Assembly: GCA_947428835.1 (NCBI GenBank)
Contig: CANENE010000005.1
Coordinates: 62,001 to 126,000 of the forward strand
Origin: an uncultured bacterium
Lineage (GTDB): Bacteria; Cyanobacteriota; Vampirovibrionia; Gastranaerophilales; Gastranaerophilaceae
Reading direction: 5' to 3'
Length of the DNA: 64,000 bases
Position 1 is the stretch's first letter. Each line of letters starts with the position of its first letter. This document shows positions 7,554 through 12,348 of the stretch, in pieces. Both the position numbers and the translations under genes were made by a program. A model generated the notes under the pieces. The model made no database searches. It was not told the origin of the DNA and saw only the letters and a program-made list of their open reading frames with translations.

Positions 7554-8885
7554 ATGAATATTACAAAAATTTCTCCAAAATTTATTATTTCACACAGCTC
7601 CAAAACAAAAAAAGCAAATGCGCATCCAAATACCCAACATTTGCAAAATAAAAAAGAAGGCAGCTCTGTAAAGACATATTATTTTCCTGTTTCTTTTGGA
7701 AATTCTCAAAAAACACAACTGACAGATGAAGATTATAACAATGCAAAAGAGTACTGGCAATCATATTTAAAGTCTCCAAGTAATAAAATTGACCTTGAAA
7801 AATTAAACGGCATCCAAAAAGGGATTGAAGTCTTTGAAGGACTTTCTATGAAAGAAATTGCCTATATGGCATTAAACGGAAAAATTAATATCGCACTAAA
7901 TCGGGGTTGCAAAAACATGTGCGCCCATTGCTATTGCAGTGCAACACCGATTACAAATAAAACTCTTGATAAAATGTCTTATGAAAATTTCAAAAGTCTT
8001 TCAGATGGAATAAAAGAACTAAAAAAAAGACTTGACTACGATGACTGCACAATAAAAGAACTGTTTTATGATTCGGATTGCATTGATATTGAAATTTCGG
8101 ATAAAGACGGGAATATTTATGATTATATAGATTGCCTCGAAGAAATTAAAGACGTATCGGACCTTAACCCTCTTTTTGATACATCGGGATGGAATCCTAA
8201 TATAGAAAAATACCAAAAAAGAGCACAAAAGTTTGTTGATTATGTATTGCGCCCTGAAAATCGTAATCTCAAAGGCAATATAAATATTTCAATTAACCCA
8301 TATCATTCTTTATATACAAAATCGGCTGAATTAAGAAAAGAAGGCAAGATAGAGCTTGCAGATGAAATGGAACAAGATTATATTAAAAGAATGGCAAATG
8401 TTTTATTCACCTTTACTCCAATTATTAAGCATAATGTAAATATTCTTGCAAGGGCGATTCCCAAGGAAAAAACAAATACAGGTCTTGACGAAATTGCCCT
8501 TAGAAAACTTACAAACAAGATTTTTAGCTGCCTTGAAGAAATGTATACAAAAGATTTGGAAGGCAAACAAAAATATGCAAAAAATAAAGGTGACATAGAA
8601 TATTTTATAGAATATTACAGAAATAATTCCAAAGAAAATGCAGGCGAAGTAAGACCAATTGGAAGAGCGCAAGGTCTTTTTATTGAACCCGATAATATTG
8701 AAGATAGCATAAATTATTTTAAAGAAGTATTAGAATATGAACCCGAATGGATTACAAGAGTAATTAATCCAAACGGAAAAGTTATTGTTGCATTTAATGA
8801 TATAACCACAAAGACAGATATTCGGTTAAATTTTAAAGATAGCAACAAATCTTCAAAACCTCTTGCATATCAAATTGAATATTAA
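7554..8885 (+). CDS. Radical SAM-type protein of unknown function
   Basis: 443 residues. The N-terminal 65 residues are low complexity and include FPVSFGNS, similar to an N-terminal motif on other proteins in this window. A CxxxCxxC cluster (Cys119, Cys123, Cys126 in GCKNMCAHCYCSATP) is the 4Fe-4S/SAM signature. Further conserved-looking stretches are LFYDSDCIDIEISDKDGN, LFDTSGWNP and RPIGRAQGL. The substrate is not evident; there is no recognisable RiPP precursor or partner. It converges on dxs with no gap. Confidence 0.7.
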   Translation: MNITKISPKFIISHSSKTKKANAHPNTQHLQNKKEGSSVKTYYFPVSFGNSQKTQLTDEDYNNAKEYWQSYLKSPSNKIDLEKLNGIQKGIEVFEGLSMKEIAYMALNGKINIALNRGCKNMCAHCYCSATPITNKTLDKMSYENFKSLSDGIKELKKRLDYDDCTIKELFYDSDCIDIEISDKDGNIYDYIDCLEEIKDVSDLNPLFDTSGWNPNIEKYQKRAQKFVDYVLRPENRNLKGNINISINPYHSLYTKSAELRKEGKIELADEMEQDYIKRMANVLFTFTPIIKHNVNILARAIPKEKTNTGLDEIALRKLTNKIFSCLEEMYTKDLEGKQKYAKNKGDIEYFIEYYRNNSKENAGEVRPIGRAQGLFIEPDNIEDSINYFKEVLEYEPEWITRVINPNGKVIVAFNDITTKTDIRLNFKDSNKSSKPLAYQIEY

Positions 8886-11472: not shown

Positions 11473-11859
11473 ATGACTGAAAAATTAGAGCTTTATAAAT
11501 GCGTAAGCTGTACAAATGTTGTTGAAGTGGTTCACGATGGAGTGGGCGAACTTGTCTGCTGTGATGCTGCAATGGACAAAATGGGCGAAAACACTCCAAA
11601 TCCCGAAAATGCGCATTTTGCACACGTTGAAAGATTGGATGGCGAAACAAAAAAAGTATTTTTTAACCACCCGATGACTCCTGAACATCACATAGAATTT
11701 ATTGAAGCTATTTCAATGGATGGTAAATACGTTAAAAGAAAATTCTTAAAAGAAAATGAGCCGGCTGAAATGTATTTCAGATGCGACTGTAAAGAAGGCT
11801 ATATTATAAGATTATTATGTAATTTAGACGGTGTTTGGACTACAAAGGAGCAGCACTAA
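11473..11859 (+). CDS. dfx: Desulfoferrodoxin (superoxide reductase) with altered center II
   Basis: 128 residues. The N-terminal desulforedoxin center I has Cys10, Cys13, Cys29 and Cys30. The C-terminal SOR domain has His48, His66 (NHPM), His72 (EHHIEF) and Cys116 (LLCNLDGVW). In characterised proteins the last motif is CNLHGxW; here the final His ligand is Asp119, and the EKH motif reads NAH. Superoxide reductase activity is therefore likely but not certain. It is translationally coupled to the ferritin: the stop TAA is followed immediately by its ATG. Confidence 0.87.
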   Translation: MTEKLELYKCVSCTNVVEVVHDGVGELVCCDAAMDKMGENTPNPENAHFAHVERLDGETKKVFFNHPMTPEHHIEFIEAISMDGKYVKRKFLKENEPAEMYFRCDCKEGYIIRLLCNLDGVWTTKEQH

Positions 11860-12348
11860 ATGGATAATAAACTTACAACCGCATTTTCAAAACAGATAAA
11901 TAATGAATTTTATAGTGCCTACTTATATTTTGCAATGTCAACATATTTTGAAGAAATTGCAATGGAAGGCTTTAGCAAGTTTATGAAACACAAAGCGGGC
12001 GAAAAACTCACAAGAGCACAAAACATCTATGAATATATAATTTTAAGAGACGAAAAATTAAGTTTATATAAAATAGATGAACCTGAAGTCGATTGGATTA
12101 ATGCAACCGATATTTTTGCAAGTGCCTTAAATCACGAAGAATTTATGCTGACTCAATTGAATGAATTGTATAAAATTGCTTTTGAGACAGATGACGCAGC
12201 TTCCATGGAATTTATTTCAACAATTTTAAATGAAGAAGTTTTGTGCGTTGGAAAGCTTAGGAAACTTGTTTTCAAAATCAAAAATTCTTCAACAATTTCG
12301 CCAAATGTTGAATTATTGGACAATAACATCGAAACATTTATGAATTAA
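11860..12348 (+). CDS. Ferritin-like protein with non-canonical ferroxidase residues
   Basis: 162 residues, a four-helix ferritin (FSKQINNEFYSAYLYFAMS, GFSKFMKHKAGEKL, ALNHEEFMLTQLNEL). The normal role is iron storage by ferroxidation. Aligned by eye to E. coli FtnA, Glu17 is kept (Glu16 here) and Glu94 is kept. Glu50 is Lys49, His53 is Arg52 and Glu130 is Cys129, so the dinuclear site seems disrupted. AAAGGAG lies inside the end of dfx. The 3' end overlaps nth by 11 bases on the other strand. Confidence 0.85.
   Translation: MDNKLTTAFSKQINNEFYSAYLYFAMSTYFEEIAMEGFSKFMKHKAGEKLTRAQNIYEYIILRDEKLSLYKIDEPEVDWINATDIFASALNHEEFMLTQLNELYKIAFETDDAASMEFISTILNEEVLCVGKLRKLVFKIKNSSTISPNVELLDNNIETFMN

Follow-up and report, generated by a model that had tools for sequence, protein, structure and literature searches.

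Introduction

In superoxide reductases, Glu47 becomes a ligand of the ferric iron once the reaction is over. Lys48 accelerates the attack of superoxide, and the equatorial ligand His119 is the histidine that binds through its N-delta, a geometry that an aspartate oxygen can imitate. The enzymes of Nanoarchaeum equitans and Ignicoccus hospitalis are not known to lack any of the four histidines of the catalytic iron site. Both are one-iron enzymes, unlike the two-domain protein considered here. A reference title in PMC3116461 describes the N. equitans enzyme as lacking the conserved glutamate, and the T24K designation of entry 4brj implies a threonine at the place of the lysine in I. hospitalis. 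In PMC3116461 and PMC11523218, centre II is described as four equatorial histidines and one cysteine, and SORGOdb uses the search pattern HX5H-CX2H (PMC3116461). Reference titles, including those of PMC3116461, indicate that the catalytic role of Glu47 and Lys48 was studied previously and that one natural enzyme does without the glutamate. Since such an enzyme is described, as far as these titles go, the glutamate and lysine of the EKH loop are not strictly defining for a superoxide reductase, and their loss alone need not abolish activity.

Ferritins that depart from the canonical di-iron site are also on record. In the human L chain, according to PMC11396501, a Lys62-Glu107 salt bridge takes the place that the iron site has in the H chain. 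Escherichia coli FtnB is a heme-free bacterial paralogue with changed ferroxidase ligands beside the canonical FtnA. Bfr2 of Magnetospirillum gryphiswaldense, according to PMC8945002, has no ferroxidase centre and co-assembles with Bfr1, both being heme-type bacterioferritins of a two-ferritin operon; in the mixed FtnA/BfrB cage of P. aeruginosa, the same paper states, both subunits are catalytic.

Here we compare these systems with a desulfoferrodoxin (Dfx) and a ferritin encoded side by side in the window, the 64,000-nucleotide stretch of DNA analysed in this work. In the open-licence literature, searched by titles and abstract openings, we found no aspartate variant of superoxide reductase and no report on Dfx or ferritin of Gastranaerophilales. 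The genome of the window (G000) measures 1.8 Mb, and its named relatives are mostly Candidatus Gastranaerophilales or Melainabacteria metagenome-assembled genomes.

Results

Organization of the dfx-ferritin locus

The dfx gene (11473..11859, + strand) encodes a two-domain Dfx of 128 residues with matches to Pfam PF06397 and PF01880 above the cut-off. It is followed by a gene for a ferritin of 162 residues (11860..12348, + strand; PF00210, 97.5 bits), hereafter the linked ferritin. The two genes had been described as overlapping; in fact, the TAA of dfx is immediately followed by the ATG of the ferritin gene, so that they abut with zero overlap. A Shine-Dalgarno-like AAGGAG can be read inside the 3' end of dfx, and translational coupling from dfx to the ferritin gene is plausible. 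At the other end, the ferritin gene runs into the convergent nth gene, their 3' ends sharing 11 bases (12338-12348). Promoter and terminator scans at the locus returned nothing that exceeded shuffled sequence.

A ferritin gene adjoins dfx at 26 of 27 loci of the genus, in 24 cases on the same strand and less than 100 bases downstream. Where a genus locus extends far enough, the order dfx-ferritin-nth-trx is conserved, with grx and a TPR gene next in most of the longer loci. The DJ-1-like gene upstream of dfx in the window was not found at the 25 other genus loci examined, some of which represent the same genome repeatedly. At two loci, inserts of 322 bases (L007) and 421 bases (L093) separate dfx from the ferritin gene, the former containing a long direct repeat and the latter repeated short blocks. 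Outside the genus, a ferritin gene lies less than 100 bases downstream of dfx at 82 of 130 family loci. The adjacency is therefore old and common in the family beside canonical proteins, and it provides by itself no argument for a new joint function.

Metal sites of the desulfoferrodoxin

The register of Dfx was fixed with an HMM built from 25 relatives, all outside the genus, and 1vzg. It aligned nearly the full length of the window Dfx and placed Asn46-Ala47-His48 on Glu47-Lys48-His49 and Asp119, within CNLDGVW, on His119. This bore out the preliminary description, in which the last histidine ligand was given as replaced by Asp119 and the EKH motif as missing; no different register that would restore the ligands was found. 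A misread register or an assembly error is refuted, for although the first automatic alignment (MAFFT) misplaced the EKH region, the HMM built without genus sequences agreed with a second alignment made with more care, and the same residues recur in 22 separate genomes.

Centre I is intact: its four cysteine ligands Cys10, Cys13, Cys29 and Cys30 (11500..11562, + strand), arranged as CX2C and CC, were invariant in all 27 genus members. At centre II, His48 (11614..11616, + strand; ligand His49), His66 (11668..11670, +; His69), His72 (11686..11688, +; His75) and the axial ligand Cys116 (11818..11820, +) were each present in 27/27. The changed residues are Asn46-Ala47 (11608..11613, +) at the canonical Glu47-Lys48 of EKH and Asp119 (11827..11829, +) at the equatorial His119. 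Neither Glu47 nor Lys48 occurs in any of the 27 genus Dfx, position 47 being Asn in 22 and Asp in 5, and position 48 Ala, Pro, Phe or Leu throughout. Only two residues occur at position 119, Asp in 22 Dfx and His in the other 5; 22 of the 27 genus Dfx, including that of the window, thus read CX2D where the pattern HX5H-CX2H has CX2H, with the remaining ligands present. The SORGOdb pattern requires this last histidine and would miss the window Dfx. Likewise, the protein scored 89.1 bits with the NCBIfam equivalog TIGR00320, below the cut-off of 146.9.

His51 was considered as an alternative ligand and rejected, its position being occupied by H in 21, Y in 2, I in 2, F in 1 and N in 1 of the genus sequences, against 27/27 for His48.

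A structural model computed from a 56-row alignment had a mean pLDDT of 95.1, and its best PDB match was 2ji2, the superoxide reductase of Desulfoarculus baarsii (TM 0.87, rmsd 2.3). The window Dfx shares with this two-iron enzyme (2ji2, 1vzg) the two-domain fold, all centre I cysteines and, at centre II, the axial cysteine along with three of the four histidines. It differs by the aspartate in place of His119 and by the absence of Glu47 and Lys48.

Outside the genus, the comparison covered 130 Dfx, which represent every non-genus genome that had a match in a sample of 146. Position 119 was His in 129 of them and unreadable in the remaining one (L241), which is frame-broken; 125 of the 130 have Glu47 and 118 have Lys48. 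The remaining iron ligands are all kept in the genus and in the rest of the family, save for two rows whose N-terminus was not read. Within the genus, 27 of 28 genomes had a Dfx match, and the sole genome without one is 77% complete.

In the genus, positions 47 and 119 covary perfectly: Asn47 is paired with Asp119 in 22 Dfx and Asp47 with His119 in 5, no other combination being seen. Exactly one carboxylate is present at these two positions in all 27, so that one carboxylate is always retained at centre II. In 25 outgroup Dfx, the pairs were Glu47/His119 (21), Asp47/His119 (2) and Ala47/His119 (2). This covariation represents only about two evolutionary events, and a paired test, yielding one to two independent pairs, has no power. 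In the Dfx tree, Asp119 requires two changes, a single change sufficing in 20% of 200 bootstrap trees. In a tree of both proteins, built with Dfx columns 47, 48 and 119 removed, positions 47 and 119 each require two changes, with a single change in 0% of 200 bootstraps. Because one Asn47/Asp119 sequence (L106) is placed among the Asp47/His119 rows and L111 stands apart from those rows, the direction of change is left ambiguous. The outgroup rows of the trees were chosen by hand, 25 Dfx from 130 and 22 ferritins from 90.

To look for Asp119 beyond the genus, 382 genomes of the class were scanned with a DNA pattern for CNxDGxxW, which misses variants such as CNLDN. It occurred at 60 places in 54 genomes. 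Of the thirty places read, 14 were not Dfx and 16 were, each of the latter belonging to this genus; among the 30 other places, two are known Dfx places of the genus. Clostridia and other phyla were covered by 56 loci, among which Asp119 was seen only in genus-type sequences.

Some further observations concern the Dfx family at large. The Dfx of L241 (genome G056) is split into two overlapping matches, indicating a frame break or an assembly error. Two genomes of another genus, g9 (G008 and G046), are 98-99% complete and have zero Dfx matches. Dfx of rumen Elusimicrobia (L055, L056, L061, L063) are 41-43% identical to that of the window and carry EKH and His119.

Metal site of the linked ferritin

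Residues of the linked ferritin were assigned by alignment to E. coli FtnA from the reference genome NC_000913.3, with ligand roles taken from PMC7762939. Lys49, Arg52 and Cys129 stand where FtnA has Glu50, His53 and Glu130, as had been proposed by eye. Three of the five residues of a di-iron ferroxidase centre (Glu17, Glu50, His53, Glu94, Glu130) are hence replaced, while Glu16, Tyr23 and Glu93 correspond to FtnA Glu17, Tyr24 and Glu94. The four-helix ferritin fold is preserved: besides the PF00210 match, a model from 34 rows (mean pLDDT 89.4) matched best the Pyrococcus furiosus ferritin 2x17, with a TM of 0.93 and an rmsd of 1.4.

Across the 26 genus sequences read, the position of Lys49 (12004..12006, + strand), which is that of the FtnA bridging ligand Glu50, holds Lys in 24 cases and Arg in the other 2. 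Its proposed salt-bridge partner Glu93 (12136..12138, +) is Glu in 26/26, Glu16 (11905..11907, +) is Glu in 24 and Gln in 2, and Tyr24 (FtnA numbering) is invariant. By comparison, the position of Arg52 (12013..12015, +) takes seven residue types, His in none, and that of Cys129 (12244..12246, +) nine, with Glu in 2 of 26, making it the most variable of 135 columns. In percentiles of variability over these columns, positions 130, 129, 126 and 53 rank 100th, 97th, 94th and 91st, and 49 and 127 both 81st; at the same time, 43 of the 135 columns are invariant. The metal ligands were thus freed from constraint, with Glu17, Lys/Arg50, Glu94 and Tyr24 held, as would be expected if a salt bridge had replaced the di-iron site. 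The invariable combination of Lys or Arg at the bridging glutamate with its partner Glu94 is that of an L-type subunit.

The animal L chain is alike in having no ferroxidase centre, a lysine at the bridging glutamate and the partner glutamate kept, the ferritin positions Glu62 and Glu107 being equivalent to FtnA Glu50 and Glu94. Its origin is separate, however, and the linked ferritin bears no sign of added nucleation carboxylates. E. coli FtnB, with Asn50, Gln53 and Tyr94, has no Lys50-Glu94 pair, and it is not linked to dfx within the stretch fetched. Unlike the bacterioferritins Bfr1 and Bfr2, the linked ferritin is not of the heme type.

Two fragments (L225, L243) were unreadable at ferritin positions 50 and 53, and L243 entered the trees truncated. 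N-terminal gaps, arising from late start picks, affected 23 of 90 ferritins outside the genus, and starts were re-picked for the trees.

Canonical ferritin and separability of the changes

A second, canonical ferritin was found in 28 of 28 genus genomes, with all ten site positions canonical and invariant. The linked ferritin is 32% identical to it and less acidic, with a mean net charge of −6.2 versus −12.2. The linked protein is best understood as an L-type subunit without ferroxidase of its own, which would mix with the canonical ferritin or depend on it.

Other genera of the family show the changes apart. In G070 and G040, of another genus, the dfx-linked ferritins (L228 and L231, respectively) carry Lys50, Ser53 and Leu or Ile130, next to a Dfx with EKH and His119 intact; each of these genomes also holds a canonical second ferritin. 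In the ferritin tree, L228 and L231 group with the canonical L175, distant from the genus of the window, and the exchanges Glu50 to Lys and His53 to Ser in these genomes are of separate origin. The converse was seen in G039 and G069, where a Dfx without Glu-Lys (Ala47) lies beside a canonical linked ferritin. In G002, the linked ferritin is the sole full-length ferritin match and is canonical. Every examined genome with a ferroxidase-dead linked ferritin also holds a canonical ferritin. Taken together, these patterns make the Dfx and ferritin changes separable.

Selection and superoxide enzymes

For three close pairs listed for both genes (L110-L012, L107-L008 and L097-L101), dN/dS was 0.05-0.15 for Dfx and 0.06-0.11 for the linked ferritin. 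Some cross-clade pairs among the lowest-dS pairs listed were higher, at 0.43-0.59 for Dfx and about 0.30 for the ferritin. Over unsaturated pairs, Dfx had a median of 0.27 (210 of 351 pairs); the medians of the two ferritins were lower, at 0.20 (166 of 325) for the linked and 0.15 (347 of 378) for the canonical protein. Both dfx and the linked ferritin gene are under purifying selection, and the low values for close pairs mean that neither is decaying.

No Fe/Mn superoxide dismutase (SOD) was found in the 28 genus genomes, the control matching in 12 of 14 genomes. No Cu/Zn SOD was detected in the window's own genome, with a control that matched in 4 of 14, and this genome has one Dfx only, without a second copy. 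The control of the nickel SOD search matched in 0 of 14 genomes. A second Dfx or a SOD taking the place of the altered Dfx was accordingly rejected for the enzymes and genomes so covered, namely Dfx and Cu/Zn SOD in the window's own genome and Fe/Mn SOD in all 28. The altered Dfx was the only superoxide enzyme found among those sought (Fe/Mn SOD, Cu/Zn SOD and a second Dfx).

Discussion

The preliminary description had taken the two altered metal sites as a changed joint function rather than chance. Its first half stands: Asp119 in 22 of 27 Dfx, the loss of Glu47 and Lys48 in 27 of 27 and the exchange of Glu50 for Lys or Arg in 26 of 26 ferritins are beyond chance and under purifying selection. 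A local mutation or error is ruled out, since the canonical residues are missing from close relatives and the changes are common to the whole genus. A single joint function found no support, since the changes separate in G040/G070 and G039/G069. The residues of the Dfx site had indeed changed, but a swap at centre II is a better reading than a loss.

From the residue patterns, we lean towards a retuned Dfx, with a ligand swap at centre II and superoxide reduction likely preserved, accompanied by a linked L-type ferritin devoid of ferroxidase activity. Dfx would remain a folded two-iron protein under selection. The mobile loop no longer bears its carboxylate, that of Glu47, which in canonical enzymes is the sixth ligand in the ferric state; the carboxylate of Asp119 would replace an equatorial histidine, giving a predicted centre II of the composition Fe(His)3(Asp)(Cys), in which Asp119 presumably binds the metal. 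An in-plane carboxylate should lower the redox potential and stabilize the ferric form, and product release would have to differ without the mobile glutamate. Superoxide reduction is most likely retained, with such a shifted potential and altered product release, because these genomes yielded no superoxide enzyme other than Dfx. In the linked ferritin, a Glu17-Lys50-Glu94 salt bridge is predicted to replace the di-iron site in three dimensions as well; this ferritin would probably co-assemble with the canonical one or store iron oxidized by it. Several observations count against this reading. Five genus members retain His119, so that even here Dfx can do without the ligand exchange, and the covariation of positions 47 and 119 goes back to about two events. 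The two ferritins are only 32% identical, and no gain of nucleation carboxylates was seen, unlike in animal L chains, the linked ferritin being the less acidic of the two. Asp119 could also be a non-ligand, leaving centre II altered or empty.

If centre II were non-catalytic, Dfx might carry electrons by way of centre I, which is intact and desulforedoxin-like, and pass them for instance to the core of the neighbouring ferritin or to rubrerythrins. The invariance of the centre I cysteines, the alteration of both EKH residues plus one ligand and the presence of rubredoxin in 26 of 28 genus genomes, showing that such carriers are used, would all fit. We nevertheless judge this rather unlikely, as a dead site needs neither three invariant histidines with Cys116 nor a position 119 restricted to Asp and His, and as no other superoxide enzyme was found to take over.

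The retuned Dfx with its ferroxidase-dead neighbour can be extended to a module that would both remove superoxide and hold or release iron, in which an Fe(His)3(Asp)(Cys) superoxide reductase, its carboxylate moved from the loop to the equatorial plane, works beside the L-type ferritin in gut bacteria whose genomes yielded no superoxide dismutase. This extension is tentative, and we consider it unlikely.

That both proteins changed together into one device, Dfx for instance reducing ferritin-held iron for its release, appears improbable to us. Their adjacency throughout most of the genus, the genus-wide alteration of both and the conserved nth-trx flank speak for it; yet the adjacency is old and frequent with canonical proteins, each change is present without the other in different genera, and Asp119 is missing in 5 of 27 Dfx where all 26 linked ferritins read are changed.

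Early decay of both genes under relaxed selection would account for the free drift of the ferroxidase ligands and for the long stem branches (Dfx 0.45, ferritin 0.79), but it is very improbable and largely refuted by the low dN/dS of close pairs, the retention of Dfx in nearly all genus genomes and the 43 invariant ferritin columns.

The genus Dfx and linked ferritin should be of interest to those who work on superoxide reductases and on ferritins. The natural, genus-wide swap of histidine for aspartate, paired with the loss of the mobile glutamate, constitutes a ready test of the role of each ligand. The linked ferritin is a clear exception, and within the family its type has at least two origins next to dfx; with E. 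coli FtnB and M. gryphiswaldense Bfr2, such exceptions already existed.

Additional observations

Shortly before the axial centre II cysteine, Dfx carries a CxC pair, Cys104-x-Cys106 (11782-11790), which is found in 27 of 27 genus Dfx and in 35 of 130 other family Dfx and is missing from 1vzg. It is a possible extra metal or disulfide site. Elsewhere in the window, an open reading frame of 443 residues (7554-8885, + strand) matched neither Pfam nor NCBIfam at E 0.001. It contains a CX3CX2C motif that resembles the one of radical SAM enzymes.
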